Assembly: GCA_027451885.1 (NCBI GenBank)
Contig: DAIDHX010000146.1
Span: 1 to 64,000, forward strand
Length of the DNA: 64,000 bases
From: Planctomycetales bacterium
GTDB lineage: Bacteria; Planctomycetota; Planctomycetia; Isosphaerales; Isosphaeraceae
Direction of reading: 5' to 3'
Shown here in pieces: positions 17,243 to 26,017 of the stretch. The position numbers and the translations under genes are program-made. Within the stretch, counting starts at the first letter, position 1; every line of letters begins with the position of its first letter. The notes below the pieces were generated by a model. The model had not been told where the DNA came from. It saw only the letters and a list, made by a program, of their open reading frames with translations, and ran no database searches.

Positions 17243-18367
17243 TTAATACCAGGTGCCAACGTCGCTCGATGCGTTCCAGGCCAGAATACTGGCCGCGATT
17301 GCATCGAGCGGCAGTACGGCCTTGGCTGCGCCCCGGCGAATTGCTTCCCGTGGCATGCCGAAGACGACGCAAGTCGCTTCGTTCTGAGCGATCGTAAGTC
17401 CGCCGCTTTCGCGCATTTCGAGCAGCCCGCCTGCGCCGTCGTCTCCCATGCCGGTCATAATCACGCCCGCGGCGTACGGACCCGCCGCCTGCGCCGTGGA
17501 GCGGAAAAGCACCTCCACCGAGGGTTTGTGGCGGCAGACCGGCGGGCCCTCGACAAGTTCCACGCGGTATCCCGTGCCTGCTCGGCGCACCACGCCATGG
17601 ACGTCGCCGGGCACAATCAATGCACGGCCGTGACGGATCTGCTCGTGTTGCCGGGCCAGGGCAACCTCCATTTCGATCCGTGGATCATTATTGAGCCTCT
17701 GCGCAAAAGCCGCGGTGAACGCCGCGGGCATATGTTGCACGATCACGATGCCGGGCGAATTCTTGGGGAAGCCTGCCAGAAGCTGCTGGAGCGCCTGCAC
17801 GCCGCCGGTGGAGACCCCAACGGCGATCATGCGTTCGGTCGCACCCGCTCGTGAGGTGTACGGCAATTTGGGCAGGATGGCGTCGGCCATATGGCGGGGG
17901 TCCGTGGACGGCGTCCGTTCCTCGGAGATCGGAGCCCGCCCCGCTCGGGCCGCGTTCGTAATGCTTTCGATCAACCCTTGAGACCATTCGCTCATCCGCG
18001 ACGTGTCGTTCCAGTTGGGCTTGGCGATCACCTCCATCGCCCCCATCTCAAGCGCGGTCACCGCACGTTCGGCCTGAGCTGTGCAAAGAACGACCGGCAT
18101 CGGGTGCTGACGCATGAGCTTGCCCAGGAACGTGAGCCCGTCCATGCGCGGCATCTCAACGTCGAGCAAGATCACACCGGGAACGGATTTAGAGAGCATG
18201 GCGACCGCTTCATACGGGTCGGATGCCAGCACAACGCGAAAGCGCGGGTCGGACTCGATGATTGACTTCAGCCGCTGCCGGACGACTGCGCTATCGTCGA
18301 CAACAAGCACCTCAATGGGCTCGGACTGCGGAGATCGCCCTGAAGGATGAAGCTCTCGCCTGGCCAT
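17243..18367 (-). CDS. cheB: chemotaxis protein-glutamate methylesterase/glutamine deamidase
   Basis: A 374-residue protein with an N-terminal receiver (phosphoacceptor D69 in LLDVEMPRMDG, acidic pair in VVDDS) and a C-terminal methylesterase domain. The catalytic triad is visible as S186 (GVSTGG), H212 (VQHMP) and D309 (TGMGDDG). It removes methyl groups from receptor glutamates when phosphorylated by CheA, opposing CheR. It is the last gene of the chemosensory run; its ATG lies 5 nt after the cheR stop, so translation is probably coupled. Confidence 0.95.
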   Translation of the reverse strand: MARRELHPSGRSPQSEPIEVLVVDDSAVVRQRLKSIIESDPRFRVVLASDPYEAVAMLSKSVPGVILLDVEMPRMDGLTFLGKLMRQHPMPVVLCTAQAERAVTALEMGAMEVIAKPNWNDTSRMSEWSQGLIESITNAARAGRAPISEERTPSTDPRHMADAILPKLPYTSRAGATERMIAVGVSTGGVQALQQLLAGFPKNSPGIVIVQHMPAAFTAAFAQRLNNDPRIEMEVALARQHEQIRHGRALIVPGDVHGVVRRAGTGYRVELVEGPPVCRHKPSVEVLFRSTAQAAGPYAAGVIMTGMGDDGAGGLLEMRESGGLTIAQNEATCVVFGMPREAIRRGAAKAVLPLDAIAASILAWNASSDVGTWY

Positions 18368-18372
18368 CGCAA

Positions 18373-19236
18373 CTAGCCCTCCTTCTGGAACAGAGAAGGA
18401 GAGTGCTTGCGGAGATTGGCTGGAACTTCGGGCAGAATCTCGCCATTCCCCATCACGAGCCAGCCGCCTGGGCGGAGTTGCTGGGTCAGCCGGTGCAGCA
18501 GTGTGAGCCGCTCTTCGTCGGAAAAATAGATCGACACATTGCGGCAGAAGATCATGGGTAGGTCACCCGGCACCGGCCAGACCGGATTCCTCAGGTCGAT
18601 ATGCCGGAAGCGAACCATATCGCGGATTTCAGGCACCACACGGAAGGAGCCCTCACGAGGCCCACGCCCGAGCAAGAAGAACCTGCGCAGTCTAGGCGGA
18701 GAAATTCCTTGAACGTCGCGGGTGGTGTAGATGGCTCCCGCAGCGGCCTTGAGCATTTCGAGCGACAGATCGCTGGCCCAGATTTCGACTTTTTGAGCGA
18801 CGGTCGGGCCGAGCAACTCGAGGAGCACCATGGCCATGCTGTAGGGCTCCTGGCCGGAGGAACAGCCTGCCGACCAGATCCGCACAGGCTGGGAGGGTGA
18901 CTCCTTGAGCCAGGTTGCAACCCGCTCGGTCATGAATGTGAAATGGGCCGGCTCGCGGAAAAACGAGGTGTGGTTGACCGTGGAAAGATCGATCAAGAGC
19001 TGCGCGCCCCAGCCGTTGGGGTCGACGCGAAGCACCTGTTCATGAAACTGGGTAAAGCTTCGGTAGCTTTTCGCCTGCAATCGGGAACGCAATCGGGCCT
19101 GGAGCAAGCCCATTCGGTGCGATTCAAGCGTGATCCCGATCTGATGGCGCAGAAAGACCGTAATCGGAGTAAAGTCTTTCTCCGACCACGGCTCGGGCTC
19201 CGCCGGTGGGGGTGGCAGGCTTCCCGATGTCGCCAC
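18373..19236 (-). CDS. cheR: chemoreceptor methyltransferase
   Basis: S-adenosylmethionine-dependent methylation of receptor glutamates. The protein has the all-alpha N-terminal domain (FLRHQIGITLESHRMGLLQ, basic helix RLRSRLQAK) and the SAM-binding domain with WSAGCSSGQEPYSMAM and the downstream FCRNVSIYF motif. I favour GTG 19236, one base after the cheW stop, with GAGGG 9 nt upstream, giving 287 residues. GTG 19251, overlapping cheW, is an alternative. Which CheR subclass it belongs to, and whether it docks on a receptor pentapeptide, cannot be told by eye, but the neighbouring receptor has a candidate tail. Confidence 0.93.
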   Translation of the reverse strand: MATSGSLPPPPAEPEPWSEKDFTPITVFLRHQIGITLESHRMGLLQARLRSRLQAKSYRSFTQFHEQVLRVDPNGWGAQLLIDLSTVNHTSFFREPAHFTFMTERVATWLKESPSQPVRIWSAGCSSGQEPYSMAMVLLELLGPTVAQKVEIWASDLSLEMLKAAAGAIYTTRDVQGISPPRLRRFFLLGRGPREGSFRVVPEIRDMVRFRHIDLRNPVWPVPGDLPMIFCRNVSIYFSDEERLTLLHRLTQQLRPGGWLVMGNGEILPEVPANLRKHSPSLFQKEG

Positions 19237-19237
19237 G

Positions 19238-19747
19238 TTACACGCCCTCACCGCTCATCGACCCGAGAGTCGAAAAGATTCGATCAACATCCAGTACGAG
19301 CAAGAAGGCCTCTTGGTGACGGATCAGTCCGCGAACATACGGCGTGGCTTTTCCAAGTCCAAGCCTGGGAGCGGGTTGAATCTCGTCCTGAGGGATCTCA
19401 AGCACATCAGAAACGCGGTCGACAAGCAGACCCGTGATCTGGCGATCGTGTCCTGCGCCCGACTCCACGATCATGATGCAAGGCGCCCGGGACTGCTTGC
19501 TCTCCTTGGTTAGCCCAAACGGCGTCCTGAGATCATAAACCGGAACGACATGGCCGCGGAGATTGATCACGCCGAGCAAGTACCTGGGGCCGCCAGGAAC
19601 TTCCGTGAGCGATTGCATGTCCAGAATTTCTTGCACGCGCATCACCTCAAGGGCATACCCTTCGCCACCCAGACGAAAGACCACGAAAGACTGGGTGTGG
19701 TCGCTTTCGCTGGATTCCACACTGGCGTCGGTGATCACGTCGACCAT
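19238..19747 (-). CDS. cheW: chemotaxis coupling protein
   Basis: A 169-residue SH3-like adaptor linking receptor tips to CheA. Diagnostic sequence: FVVFRLGGEGYALEVMRVQEIL at the start of the domain (shown in part), then GVINLRGHVVPVYDLR and the C-terminal LLVDRVSDVLEI and LLVLDVDRIF strands. It sits between the receptor gene (111-nt gap) and cheR (1-nt gap). No extra domain is fused. Confidence 0.94.
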   Translation of the reverse strand: MVDVITDASVESSESDHTQSFVVFRLGGEGYALEVMRVQEILDMQSLTEVPGGPRYLLGVINLRGHVVPVYDLRTPFGLTKESKQSRAPCIMIVESGAGHDRQITGLLVDRVSDVLEIPQDEIQPAPRLGLGKATPYVRGLIRHQEAFLLVLDVDRIFSTLGSMSGEGV

Positions 19748-19858
19748 CGTACAACCCTCGGCCCTGGCCTGGCACTCTAATCAGGATTGGTTCCCTTTGC
19801 CCGCGAACCCGATCGCTGCGGATTCTCGGCAATCTGATGACCTGCAGGAATCCCTAGT

Positions 19859-21730
19859 TTACGAGAATCGCTGGAAGTTATCGTCGTCATCGAGACTCAC
19901 AATGACGCCCCCCCGAGGTGCGTTGTTGGACTGCGACGATTGAGGAGACTGCTGAGAGCCAGACATCCCCGACCCCGCTGTGTTCGGCGGCGCTGGGATT
20001 GCGTACGCGCTTAGGCCTGAAGTCGCATGCAGGTGCTGTTCCGAACTGTGAAGCGACTCCACTGAGCGTTTGTATGGTGATGGAAGCGGACGTGAGGACG
20101 CGTTGAGCTGCCCCCGCGCCGGCGTGCCGCGCGCCCGCAAGGGGGTGTCAGAGTGGATTCGGCCCATCTCATCGACCTCCGTCAGTTGAAAAAACTCGAT
20201 CTGGGTGTTCAGGTTCGAGGATTGCGAGGCCAGGCCATCGGCCGTCGCGGAAAGTTCGTGGCTCGCCGCAGCGTTTTGCTGGACCACCTCCTCGAGTTGA
20301 CTTACACCCACGTTGATTTCACGGATCGCGGTGGTTTGTTCCTGGGACGCCGCCGAGATCTCCTGAATCAGGTTGGAGACGTCGCGAATCATCGGTACGA
20401 TCCGGTCCAGCAAGGTGCCAGCATTCTCGGCAACGGCCACACTTTTCTTGGCCAGATCGCTGATCTGCTGAGCGGCCGCCTGGCTGCGCTCGGCCAACTT
20501 GCGCACCTCGCCTGCGACAACGGCAAACCCCTTGCCATGGGTGCCCGCTCTGGCCGCCTCGATCGCGGCATTGAGCGCGAGCAGATTCGTTTGATAGGCG
20601 ATATCGCCCACGATCATGATCCGCTGGGTGATTTCCCGCATGGCCACGACGGTCTCGCGCACGGCCTCGCCACCACGTTCGGCCTGGGTGCTAGCGTCGT
20701 TTGCCATGCGAGCCGTGTCCCGGGCATGTTGCGCGTTCCGGCCGACTGACGAGTCGACCGATTGCAGGCTGCTCGCGATTTCTTGAAGGGTCGCCGCCTG
20801 TTCCGCAGATCCCTGGGCAAGCTGATGAGCGCTGGAATTCAACTCGTTGCTCGCCGTGGAGACGGAGTTCGTCAGGTCGCGAATCTGGGTGATCACTTCC
20901 GACAATCGATCGACCACGGAATTCACCTGGATCGCCAGGTCGCCGAGTTCGTCGGAGCGCTTGAGCTCGGTGCGGCGATCAAGCCGGCCGTCCCGCAACA
21001 TCTGGGTGACGTCGATAATCTCCACGAGCGGGCGGACAAATCGCTTGCCGTACCAGGTTCCAAGCAGCAGCGTCAGCACGAGCACGATGCCCAGGATCCA
21101 GAGTGTTAGCGTCTGATTGTTGTAAATCGCTGCGAATGCCACTTCACGAGGCATCATCACCAGGGTGACAAAACCGTGGCGCCCCGTCTCAACCAGGCCG
21201 CTTGCAACGGGGATAGGATAGTACGCCACGAACTCTCCGCGTGACTTGGGGTCGTTCGAGAAGAGCGAGGTCATCGACCGCTCGGGCGCGACCAGCACTG
21301 TGTCGAATAACCCGACCGCCTTGTTGGCGAGGTTCAGATAGCGCGACTCGAACTGCGATGCCTGCGGCTTGGGATCGAAAGCGCCGTTGAAATCTCGGCG
21401 GGCCAGCAACACGTCGTGGGGGTTGATCAGATAAACCTGCGCCCCTTCGAGCTTGAACGCACCGAGTTCGCGTTCGATGACGCCGCGAATCTCGTTGCGC
21501 TCATTGTCGCTCAGCGCTCCCTTCTTGGCGGAATCGAGCATCTCGGGCTTCAGTTCGAGTATCGACCCCACGTCCTTGCTGATGGACGCCGCGACAAGCC
21601 CGATCATCAGCGTCTGCGTTTTACGGAATTCGTCGTTCGCCTGATAAGCGAATCCCGCGATCACGACCGCCGGCACAATGCCGAAGAGCACAAGCGCAGT
21701 CGTGATTTGCTTGCCGAGACTGATTCTCAT
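19859..21730 (-). CDS. methyl-accepting chemotaxis protein with a long C-terminal tail
   Basis: A 623-residue transmembrane receptor. TM1 is about residues 8-28, a periplasmic sensor of about 170 residues follows, TM2 is about 206-228 ([20 protein letters not shown]), then a HAMP domain and the signalling coiled coil. The tip has the conserved hairpin around [18 protein letters not shown] and [18 protein letters not shown]. After the coiled coil comes about 85 residues of Ser/Pro/Gly-rich linker ending in [10 protein letters not shown]. The last five residues before Ser, NFQRF, fit the x-aromatic-x-x-aromatic pattern of CheR-docking pentapeptides such as NWETF. The start overlaps the cheA stop by 4 nt (ATGA). 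The ligand is unknown. Confidence 0.94.
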
Positions 21731-23982
21731 GAATAGCTCTCCGCCTGCGCGGCGACCGGTCGATAGGACCGGACCGAGCGTTCCGCGAGCCGTGATTCGG
21801 AGACCACGGCTGAAAGATCAAGGATGAGTGAGACCGCGCCGTCGCCGAGAATCGTTGCACCCGAGAATCGTCCCAGCCCGTACAATCCCTCGCCAAGCGA
21901 TTGAATGACCGCCTGAACACGGCCGACCAGTCGATCGACCGCCACGCCCACGCGTTGACCAGCGTGTCGTGTCAGGAGTAATTCTTGCCGCGCTGGGGCC
22001 GAACCGTCAGCGTGGAAGAGTGTTCGCAAGGAGACCACGGGCACGAGCTCTCCACGCACGGCCACGCACGGCCGACCTTCGGCCAGGGCGGACTGGGCTC
22101 CCTGGAGCGACACGCATTCCTCAACCTGGGCGAGTGGGACCACGAACCGCCCTCCCGCGATTTCAACCAGCAGGCCGTCGATCAGGGCCAGCGTGAGAGG
22201 CAGACGAAAAACGAATGCCGTTCCCTTGCCCGGCATGCTTTCGACGGAGACACCGCCTCGAAGCGCCCGCACGGCGTCGCGCACGACATCGAGCCCGACG
22301 CCGCGCCCGGAAAGCTCCGTCACCGAATCGCGTGTGGAGAAGCCAGGCTCGAAGATCAGGCTCACGACCCGGGGATCATCGGGGGGCGTGCCCGTTGGTA
22401 CCATGCGAAGCGCGATCCCTTTTCGAACGATCTTTTCGCGATCCAGCCCACGGCCGTCGTCTTCCACGCGAATCGCCACACGATCCCCCTCGTGCCCCGC
22501 TGTCAGGGTGATCCGGCCGGCGCGTGGCTTTCCCCTGGCAACGCGTTCGTCGGGCGGCTCGAGTGCATGATCTACCGCGTTGCGGATCAGATGGATCATC
22601 GGGTCGGCCAGGCGCTCAACGATGGTACGGTCGAGCCGCGTGTCCTGGCCCACAATTTTGAGATCGATCTCCTTGCCGGATCGGTCCGAGAGGTCGCGCA
22701 CGACGCGAGGGAAACGCGAAAAGAGCTCATCCACCGGCACCATCCGGAGCTCGAGAGTGGTGTCACGGATCTGGCGGCTGACGCGTTCGAGCGCTTCAAG
22801 TGCGTGGCTCCAGGCGTCGATGCCGCGGTGTTCGCGCAAGCCCATGAGGTTGTCGGAGAGGACGACGAGCTCACCTGCGAGTCCAACAAGGTCGTCAAGC
22901 TGGGCGGCGTCAACGCGAATACGGGCGTGGGGTCGAGGCGGGGTCGCGGTGGGCGTGGGCGGCGGTGCTGGCGCGCTCGGTCCTGGTGGGGTAGGCGTGG
23001 GCGGAGGGGTCTCGGATCGTGCGCGGGCAACGGCGGGTGATTCCGTGACCTGCCGCGGAATCGCCGCTAGCTGGACCAACCCGCCGGCTGATGTTCCCAC
23101 CGGCTCGGTCTCGCCTGTTTCGGTCGCGAGCCTGATCTTGATCTCGCTGTCCATCGCTAGAAAGAGGAACACTTCCTCGATGCGTTCCAGCGGTACGGTG
23201 GTCGTCAGCGTGATCTGCCAGCTCAGATACGACCTTTCCGGATCGATCGAATCGATGCCCGGAACATCGGACGTATCGGCCACCAGTTCGAGCTCGCCAA
23301 GTTCGCGTAATTCGTCGAGGATCCCGGCCATATTCACGCCCCGGCGCAGAATATCCGGCCCGGGGCGCAACAGGATCTGATACTGACCGGCCTTGGGTTC
23401 GGCTTTCTGCCGTGCGCGGGAACGCCGCGGGGTGGATGCCTTCTTGCTGCGTGACTTCCTGGCGGGGAGCGGGGCCCCCACGGGCTCGCGTTCAGGGGCA
23501 GAAGCAACAACCGCCACAGGCGCAGGTGGTTCCGCCGCCGCGGCGCGGCCACTTTCGCCCAGCAGGTCCGCAAGCCGCGCCACCAATTCGCTTGACGGCG
23601 GAATCGGCGAATGCGCAGCCTCGGCTTCCACCATCGCGGCCAGATGGTCGCGCGCCTCGAGCAAACAACTGATAATCTCGGAGTCAACCCCCATCGCGCC
23701 CGAACGGATCCTGTCGAGCACCGCCTCTATGCCGTGGGTGAACTCGGCGATCGCGCCCAGGCCGACCATCGCCGCCGCGCCCTTCAGACTGTGGGCCGCC
23801 CGGAATGTCCTATCAAGGTGCGCACGGTCTCCGCGCCTGCGTTCGAGATCCATCAGCCCTTCTTCCAGGCCGATCAGAAGCTCGCGCGCTTCCTCGTGAA
23901 ACATCTCGCGAAAGCGGTCCTCAGCACTACTCAACGGCTTGAACCCCCTCTGCCTTGATGGCGGCCGACCCTCTTTCTCCAC
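21727..23982 (-). CDS. cheA: chemotaxis histidine kinase
   Basis: A 751-residue autokinase that phosphorylates CheY and CheB. Domains in order: Hpt/P1 with phospho-His H64 in AAHSLKGAA; a Pro-rich linker; a P2-like domain (residues about 205-300); a second Pro-rich linker; dimerisation helices; the ATPase with N box [13 protein letters not shown]1 box [10 protein letters not shown] box FEPGFST and G2 box GRGVGLDVV; and a C-terminal CheW-like P5 domain. The start is a GTG; GGGAG is about 17 nt upstream, so the start is less sure than the gene. The stop overlaps the receptor ATG, so the two are translationally coupled. Confidence 0.95.
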
Positions 23983-24006: not shown

Positions 24007-24372
24007 CTAACTTGGCAATGCTCGCTTGACCCATCGCCTCAAGCTCTCAGGCTCAACAGGCTTAACCAACCATCCGGTCACGCCATGGCGTTGCTGGGGA
24101 TCGATCTCGTGAGGCTTGCGTGAGGAAAGTACGAGCACGGGCAAGAAACGGTGCGCGGGCAGTTCACGAACGGCAGCGAGCAATCCCAGGCCATCCAGGT
24201 TCGGCATCTCGAGATCCGTGAGCAGCAAATCGCAGTCTGATTCGCGCAGGATCTCAAGCGCGGCCGCACCGTCCGACACAGACACCACTCGGACGTCGAG
24301 CTCGGCGAGCTGTTCCGCCACCCAGCGCCGGACTGAGGCGCTATCGTCGGCGTGAAGCACGGTCTTGCTCAT
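24007..24372 (-). CDS. cheY: single-domain response regulator (CheY-like)
   Basis: A 121-residue stand-alone receiver. It has the acidic pair ADD (8-10), phosphoacceptor D53 in LLTDLEMPNLDG, the switch Ser in LVLSSRKP, and the conserved Lys in WLVKPVEP. It lies 24 nt before cheA in the same run and is the obvious phospho-acceptor of CheA. The frame stays open upstream of ATG 24372, but that extension has no receiver sequence and overlaps the STAS gene in another frame, so the ATG with MSKTVLHADDS is taken. Output could be the flagellar motor or another target; no flagellar genes are in the window. Confidence 0.9.
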   Translation of the reverse strand: MSKTVLHADDSASVRRWVAEQLAELDVRVVSVSDGAAALEILRESDCDLLLTDLEMPNLDGLGLLAAVRELPAHRFLPVLVLSSRKPHEIDPQQRHGVTGWLVKPVEPESLRRWVKRALPS

Positions 24373-24436: not shown

Positions 24437-24733
24437 TCATTCGCTGATCCCGGCCAGCCAGTCACCCAGTCCGCACCTGGAGGCAAGCCCCGAAAACACG
24501 CCCGGCGCGCCTGCAACTTGAACCGCCAGCCCATGTTCCTTCGCCGATCGCTCGAGCGCCAGCAAAAGTTGCAACCCGGCGAGATCCCAGCTCGTGGTAT
24601 CCGCCAGCTCAATCCGGATCGGCTTCCCTGCCGATATTGCCCGCGCAAGCGTCTCTCGCACCCCGATCGCTTCATAAAGAGTGATCGGTCCCGCCAGCGC
24701 GACCGTTTCCAGATCTCGAGGTTCGACCGCCAT
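24437..24733 (-). CDS. STAS-domain protein, phosphoserine position lost
   Basis: A 98-residue single STAS domain of the anti-sigma-antagonist fold (ITLYEAIGVRETLARAI, IRIELADTTSWDLAGLQLLLAL, GLAVQVAG). In SpoIIAA/RsbV the helix start reads D-S-S/T-G with the first Ser phosphorylated. Here it reads D50-L51-A52-G53, so that Ser is absent. It lies between the PP2C phosphatase gene and cheY on the same strand. The context implies a partner-switching or scaffolding role linked to chemosensory signalling, but the usual phosphorylation control appears missing. MlaB-like lipid-transport STAS proteins are an alternative family, less likely here. Confidence 0.8.
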   Translation of the reverse strand: MAVEPRDLETVALAGPITLYEAIGVRETLARAISAGKPIRIELADTTSWDLAGLQLLLALERSAKEHGLAVQVAGAPGVFSGLASRCGLGDWLAGISE

Positions 24734-24847: not shown

Positions 24848-26017
24848 TCACCCCACGTGATGTTGCACGACAATGATGTTGATGTCGTCTGCCGGACGGC
24901 CAGGGGAGGTGTGTTCTGCGATCGCCCGATCAACCTGGCTGAGAATCTCGCTAGGATCAGCCCCGTGGTAGGACTGAAGCACTGTCTTGAGCCGGTCCTC
25001 GCCGAAGAGGACATCGGAGGGATCCATCGCGTCGGTGAGCCCGTCGGTGTAAATCACGAGCGACTCGCCTTCGCAAATTCGATCGACGGAACCGGCGGTG
25101 CCATCCACCATGCCAATTCCAAGCATTCCCGGGTTGGAGACCAGCGTCCGCGGCCCTTTGGGCCCGACGATGATCGCTGGCGGATGACCCACCCCCGCAT
25201 ATCGGACAAGCCCTGTCTCCTCGTCGGCGATCAAATAAAACGCGGTGCAAAAGTATCCCTCGGGGAAATATTGCTCGGCGGCGCTATCAAGCCCCGCGAG
25301 CAGCTCGCCCGGCTCCATGACGGCGAGCGACAACGGCGCAGCAAGTGCCTTCACCATGCCTGAGAGCATCGCCGAATTCACCCCGTGGCCGGACACATCC
25401 GCCACCAGAATTCCCAGGCGATTGTTGTCCAGCCGGTAGAAGTCGTACACGTCGCCGCCAAGCTCGTTGGCCGGCTTGTATCGCACCGCCGCACGAAGGA
25501 CGCCACGAGGTTTCGGCGGCCGCGGCATCAGCGCGAACTGGACCTTCCGCGCAAGATCGAGCTCAAAGCTCATCTTCTTGTGAGCCGCCTCAAGCTGGCG
25601 ATTACGCTCCGTTACCTCTCGATTCAAATCCGCAAGACGCAGGTGCGCCTTGAGCCGCGCACACAGCTCCCGAAACTCATCCGGCCCCTTCGGCTTTTGG
25701 ATGTAGTCATCCGCCCCAGCCTCCAGCCCCGCGATCCGGTTCTTGATCTCGCCCAGCGTGGTGAGCATGAGCACGGGAATCGCACGCAGGTCCTTATCCT
25801 GCTTCACGGCATGGCAAAACCCCACGCCGTCCAGTTCGGGCATCTCGTAGTCGGTGAGCATGATCTCCGGTGGCGGATCCATGCGCGCCTTCGCTAGCCC
25901 CTGAAGACCATCGTTGGCCGTCTCGACGGAATATCCCTCCTCGGCGAGCATGCTCGAGAGCATGCGTCTCATCGTCGAGCTATCTTCCACGAGCAACAGT
26001 CGGCGGGAGGGCTTCAA
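24848..26017 (-). CDS. response regulator with PP2C-type (SpoIIE/RsbU) serine phosphatase output
   Basis: A 389-residue protein. Receiver domain 1-120 has phosphoacceptor D56 (LTDYEMPELDG) and conserved Lys in YIQKPKGP. A coiled-coil linker (about 125-160) leads to a PPM phosphatase domain with metal-binding motifs GGDVYDFY, VADVSGHGVNSAM, YTDGLTDA and the terminal DDINIIVV. Such proteins dephosphorylate STAS antagonists when their receiver is phosphorylated, so CheA is a plausible input. The start is TTG with GGAG at 7-nt spacing; no better start is nearby. First gene of the chemosensory run, 118 nt before the next gene (STAS). Confidence 0.92.
   Translation of the reverse strand: MKPSRRLLLVEDSSTMRRMLSSMLAEEGYSVETANDGLQGLAKARMDPPPEIMLTDYEMPELDGVGFCHAVKQDKDLRAIPVLMLTTLGEIKNRIAGLEAGADDYIQKPKGPDEFRELCARLKAHLRLADLNREVTERNRQLEAAHKKMSFELDLARKVQFALMPRPPKPRGVLRAAVRYKPANELGGDVYDFYRLDNNRLGILVADVSGHGVNSAMLSGMVKALAAPLSLAVMEPGELLAGLDSAAEQYFPEGYFCTAFYLIADEETGLVRYAGVGHPPAIIVGPKGPRTLVSNPGMLGIGMVDGTAGSVDRICEGESLVIYTDGLTDAMDPSDVLFGEDRLKTVLQSYHGADPSEILSQVDRAIAEHTSPGRPADDINIIVVQHHVG

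Follow-up and report, generated by a model that had tools for sequence, protein, structure and literature searches.

A chemoreceptor tail of Isosphaeraceae planctomycetes that probably tethers the CheR methyltransferase through a pentapeptide placed one residue off the C-terminus

Does a chemoreceptor that ends one residue past an aromatic pentapeptide recruit its methyltransferase in the manner of enteric receptors? This question is raised by a chemosensory operon at 17243-23982 (minus strand) of a 64,000-nucleotide stretch of DNA from a Planctomycetales bacterium (contig DAIDHX010000146.1 of assembly GCA_027451885.1), referred to below as the window. The reason why some receptors need a pentapeptide, and others do not, is described as poorly understood (PMC7390727). 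The genes of interest are as follows.

24848-26017, minus strand: receiver-SpoIIE phosphatase, a possible output
24437-24733, minus strand: STAS-domain protein, a possible output partner
24007-24372, minus strand: CheY-like receiver
21727-23982, minus strand: cheA
19859-21730, minus strand: mcp, transmembrane receptor; ORF of 623 aa with HAMP (226-277), MCPsignal (341-482) and a disordered C-terminal arm
19238-19747, minus strand: cheW
18373-19251, minus strand: cheR, methyltransferase
17243-18367, minus strand: cheB, receiver and methylesterase

The order cheA-mcp-cheW-cheR-cheB bears out the initial annotation, which had placed cheR and cheB in one operon with the receptor, and is common to the window and 27 other operons; the exception is genome G006, where CheR and the tailed receptors are on separate contigs. 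The window receptor contains the MCPsignal domain (PF00015, E 4.9e-37). The genome from which the window is derived has three MCPs and four CheRs, and its remaining two MCPs end without a tail. Upstream of cheA, the genes for the CheY, the STAS protein and the receiver-SpoIIE phosphatase suggest that the output of the pathway may be a partner switch instead of a motor or motility; this trio is present there in nine of the ten relatives fetched, and was not found in the stretch taken from G034.

The C-terminal arm of the receptor is built of four elements.

19913-20194, minus strand: hypervariable disordered linker, residues 513-606
19880-19912, minus strand: conserved block preceding the pentapeptide, residues 607-617
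19865-19879, minus strand: pentapeptide NFQRF, residues 618-622, a probable CheR dock
19862-19864, minus strand: extra C-terminal Ser623, followed by the stop codon (19859-19861)

The receptor had been described at first reading as ending with NFQRF and then one Ser, which is exact. The flexibility ascribed to the preceding tail also stands, and its length, given as about 85 residues, was an underestimate: in an AlphaFold2 model of the receptor, for which 19 orthologues were used, residue 512 closes the last helix and pLDDT is below 50 for residues 517-623. The stretch ahead of the pentapeptide therefore comes to about 105 residues, of which the final 11 are conserved. A linker of at least 10 residues behind the signalling domain is the rule given for pentapeptide chemoreceptors (PMC7698151), which the arm of about 105 residues exceeds. 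The survey of Ortega and Krell (2020) defined these receptors by xZxxZ (Z = F, W or Y) as the C-terminal sequence. NFQRF agrees with the x-[FWY]-x-x-[FWY] pattern of tethering pentapeptides, as had been proposed, yet its position is one residue off the C-terminus, so that the published criterion would miss a receptor ending NFQRF-S. Judging by its sequence, the window receptor lies outside the strict published class, yet very probably works like a member.

We searched the family (45 genomes, the same 45 that make up the order) with the window receptor, at an orthologue threshold of E 1e-60 or better, and found an orthologue in 29 of them. Among the named relatives are Singulisphaera acidiphila, Singulisphaera sp. 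GP187, Aquisphaera insulae and Paludisphaera soli, all of which we take to be Isosphaeraceae, a name that several of the matched records bear. Receptor ends were compared for 31 proteins, namely the window receptor, 28 orthologues, and the paralogues L068 and L069. Fourteen of these, the window receptor included, end with xZxxZ and one further residue (Ser in 13, Asn in one), 11 end exactly with xZxxZ, and six show neither arrangement (three end FERM, one FERQP and one FERIP, and in L058 of G031 the intact tail is in another frame). When 19 receptors are aligned, the commonest residue at a position accounts on average for a fraction of 0.85 over the last 17 residues, 0.89 in the signalling core, and 0.33 in the linker (516-606); within the tail, block 607-617 is conserved at 0.87 and NFQRF at 0.86. 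Conservation extends over about 16 residues, not five, with the consensus GG[VI]VVNLDDDD plus NFERF. Compared with the congeners L039 and L040, 9 and 6 of the 17 tail codons in the window differ, all synonymously, and only 25/85 and 20/82 aligned residues of the linker are kept. Synonymous-only changes in the tail next to a diverged linker show selection on the peptide, acting over this whole unit and not on the pentapeptide alone. The tail thus proves to be conserved in orthologues, with constraint on its last 17 residues close to that on the signalling core; the initial annotation's view of the pentapeptide as a CheR dock gains support, and the extent of the conserved unit is what it had not noticed.

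The same data decide whether the likeness to a tethering pentapeptide, a motif defined by two residues only, is a coincidence within a low-complexity acidic tail. Among 616 non-MCP ORFs of at least 250 aa, collected from the window and 70 fetched loci after MCPs were removed by an HMM filter, xZxxZ is found at the very end in one and at end-1 in one, and the lone very-end match comes from the G031 receptor, its tail being translated there in a different frame. Against this background of 1/616 at each offset, the family-wide conservation and the exclusively synonymous changes among congeners already refute chance, which we regard as so improbable that it can be set aside.

Several unusual forms of the tail, or of its parts, were observed. 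The paralogues L068 (G006) and L069 (G028) are receptors outside the operon that have the same tail (GGVSIQLDEDKHFERIP and GVVIQLDEDQEQAHDRNFTRF, respectively), and in L069 ten residues separate the block from the pentapeptide. In L130 (G014:C185:14300-14800), the receptor ends YFERQP, and another stretch resembling the tail, DMVVNLDVDDNFERFS, follows in a different frame about 30 bases past the stop; it looks as if the tail was duplicated in tandem. In L132 (G031:C1:868000-868500), the receptor tail is intact and in a different frame from the receptor body, which we attribute to a frameshift, either genomic or introduced by the assembly. Finally, L131 (G016:C637, 1118-1576) is a non-MCP ORF of 153 aa with hydrophobic stretches and with NGEGIVVNLDDDEHF, without FERF, near its end; it matches the tail profile with E 4.6e-5 and resembles the receptor block. 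A search of 397 genomes of the class with the tail profile gave matches of E < 0.001 only in the window's family, and matches from E 0.01 upward were taken as chance.

If the tail is a CheR tether, its counterpart should be sought in CheR. Longer beta-loops of CheR have been found to go with pentapeptide receptors, and shorter ones with their absence (PMC3062574). The pentapeptide-binding loop, on which the proposal of a CheR dock had been made to depend, is represented in the operon CheR by a long beta-subdomain loop.

18625-18690, minus strand: long beta-subdomain loop of CheR, LRRFFLLGRGPREGSFRVVPEI, residues 188-209

The window CheR aligns gap-free through the loop to Salmonella CheR (1BC5), and P. 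aeruginosa CheR1 is short by three residues (loop lengths of 22, 22 and 19, respectively). The contact positions in Salmonella CheR are Q182, R187, G188, G190, G194 and R197 (PMC2577667), of which the window CheR keeps four (G188, G190, G194 and R197) and has Arg in place of Q182 and Leu in place of R187. The loop is complete, and G188, G190 and G194 are present, in each of the 28 operon CheRs (that of the window and 27 more); position 197 is Arg in all but L044 and L051, where it is Lys. The full-length loop is also found in the CheRs of G017, G035 and G006, the last of which differs at G190. By comparison, the long loop is seen in none of 36 other family CheRs examined, all of them shorter by 1-4 residues; these controls consist of 34 sequences fetched from more than 100 further matches listed, one of which (L168) ends at a contig edge just past the loop, and of L006 and L007 from the window's genome. 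Inspection of the translation by eye indicates that the loop is shorter also in L005, the third further CheR of this genome.

Two other approaches to CheR were tried. A fold search was not used to tell pentapeptide-dependent from pentapeptide-independent CheRs, because B. subtilis CheR (5ftw) has about the same TM score as the best matches, 1af7 and 1bc5, and because the CheR model is of mediocre quality (mean pLDDT 70.7, and 47-68 in blocks of residues 171-210). We also considered whether residue 187 of CheR, Arg or Leu, covaries with a receptor that ends freely in Phe, and rejected this likewise, as agreement by eye is rough and exceptions go both ways, with Leu or Met beside Phe-ending receptors in L056, L057 and L060, and Arg beside an extra residue in L055 and L061.

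Tail and long loop are found together throughout the family. In the 45 genomes, orthologues of both the receptor and CheR are present in 29, neither in 14, and CheR only in two, G017 and G035, where CheR sits on contigs of 4.7 and 3.3 kb and the receptor would fall beyond the contig end. To look beyond the family, 397 class genomes were searched with a CheR profile, and 40 non-family stretches were fetched from the 77 matches listed at E 1e-40 or better; three of these stretches contain no receptor. With a long loop defined as at least 21 residues, a cut-off chosen after the lengths were seen, an xZxxZ-ending receptor is present at 27 of the 28 long-loop loci that contain any receptor (the exception is L266, one of whose receptors ends GFVEM), and eight of the nine short-loop loci lack one (the exception is L296, loop length 20, with SFQEF). 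At a cut-off of 22, L289 and L290 (loop length 21, pentapeptide present) join L296 as exceptions. Fisher's test gives p 2e-6 for this pairing when related loci are treated as independent. Many of the long-loop CheRs from other families of the class (L266-L291) are in open frames of about 500 aa, so that an extra domain may be present. The xFxxF endings of these families were found by reading MCP ends, not with the tail profile. Position 2 in the 32 non-family xZxxZ ends is Phe in 31 and Tyr in one, and never Trp. Blocks repeated before the pentapeptide, as judged by eye, are of other kinds there: HELDRLG in family f3, LVGAG in parts of f2, f5 and f11, and RIPMP in f15.

Further away, the pairing has exceptions. 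Of the CheRs at 42 more distant loci (L194-L235), 38 have short loops and four have loops of 22 residues. These four (L223, L228, L231 and L234, Chloroflexi by title) are without a pentapeptide, and in Gluconobacter (L201 and L210) receptors near a short-loop CheR end with GWEEF and two or one residues, respectively, so that loop length alone is no universal predictor. The Gluconobacter ends are an instance of a pentapeptide off the C-terminus in a different phylum.

All 32 xZxxZ ends from the other families of the class, among receptors inspected from end to end-3, are exactly C-terminal, for which reason the Ser added in the window receptor and its relatives seems to be a derived feature. 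It might then be asked whether the device has decayed, CheR binding having been lost with the added Ser and the altered contact residues, and the replacement of R187 by Leu in the window's relatives would be in line with such a loss. A decaying tail would hardly be expected, however, to show zero amino-acid changes in 17 codons among congeners that differ in 6-9 of them, nor its CheR to retain the loop glycines in 28/28 operons, and we consider decay highly improbable.

A stronger competitor is that the tail mainly docks another partner, such as CheB, CheW, CheA or a localisation factor, and that its likeness to CheR pentapeptides is secondary. The block is as conserved as NFQRF (0.87 vs 0.86), and nothing corresponding to it is seen in the arms of E. 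coli Tar and Tsr as printed in PMC10561060; the FERM, FERQP and FERIP ends retain the first Phe and the block and lose the last aromatic residue; and the 153-aa membrane-type ORF of G016 contains GIVVNLDDDEHF without FERF. The tail nevertheless accompanies the long CheR loop both in the family and in the class, and we hold a principal partner other than CheR to be unlikely. The conserved tail, the long CheR loop and the class-wide pairing together indicate that the receptor tail is very probably a CheR tether, as far as can be read from sequences. A point against the tether is the positive charge of NFQRF, given that published pentapeptides are mostly negative (PMC7390727), although NFQRF is preceded by DDDD. 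The loss of Q182 and R187 from the window CheR, the six of 31 family receptors that depart from xZxxZ at end or end-1, and the exceptions to the loop-length rule outside the class also count against it.

As a CheR tether, the tail would operate as follows. The disordered arm of about 100 residues would end in NFQRF(S), with Phe619 and Phe622 docking, much as Trp and Phe of NWETF do, on the CheR encoded in the operon, at its beta-subdomain. Tethering would concentrate CheR locally around the sites at which the receptor itself and its neighbours are methylated, and the arm would let the held CheR sweep these sites, with a wider reach, at about 105 residues, than the shorter arms of E. coli would give. 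The upstream GG[VI]VVNLDDDD block may either extend the docking surface or hold a second partner. The tail would also single out the window receptor for the operon CheR, as against the other three CheRs that the genome encodes. Tail carriers are few in the genomes of this kind examined (one of three receptors in the window's genome, one paralogue each in G006 and G028) and there is one long-loop CheR, which suggests by analogy that the tail probably insulates the pathway as well.

Insulation was the conclusion drawn for McpB and CheR2 of P. aeruginosa (PMC7390727, PMC7698151), where McpB/Aer2 is likewise one tailed receptor among several and CheR2 one pentapeptide-reading CheR among four. Binding was measured for that pair, whereas for the pair in the window we infer it from sequence, together with its geometry, the effect on methylation, the insulation of the pathway and any use of the tail by CheB. 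With the NWETF-bearing Tar and Tsr of E. coli and Salmonella and their CheR (1BC5), the window system shares a flexible arm, an aromatic-x-x-aromatic end and a gap-free long beta-loop; it differs in having Phe for Trp at position 2, one residue after the pentapeptide, a conserved block ahead of it, and an arm of about 105 residues versus 30-34 in E. coli, where arm length sets the place at which CheR is most concentrated (PMC10561060). The class 34H receptors of Geobacter (EFEKF, with group B CheRs; PMC2577667) resemble the window receptor in their xFxxF type and in having the cognate CheR in the same gene cluster, and the distances from the end of HAMP to the hairpin tip (114) and from the tip to the end of the helix (121) in the window receptor would fit about 34 heptads. 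Geobacter belongs to another phylum, however, and its pentapeptide is described as strictly C-terminal (PMC2577667).

The device itself is known, and its well-supported variant in the window is set apart by a long arm, an extended block and one residue added at the C-terminus. In the available portions of the literature, we found nothing on point about planctomycete pentapeptides or about blocks before a pentapeptide, and the 11 phyla of the 2020 survey may include planctomycetes. More tentatively, and with rather less confidence than in the tether as such, we suggest a bipartite dock, in which xFxxF would be combined with a family-specific block making a second contact on CheR or another Che protein, as an address that separates parallel chemosensory pathways, and the pentapeptide would be freed from its C-terminal position. 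A strict C-terminal xZxxZ filter overlooks good candidates such as the window receptor. The conserved block before the pentapeptide is now exposed, and its partner is directly testable. The natural contrast is a clean one and recurs across a bacterial class, with long-loop CheRs next to receptors that have a tail and short-loop CheRs next to receptors that lack it.
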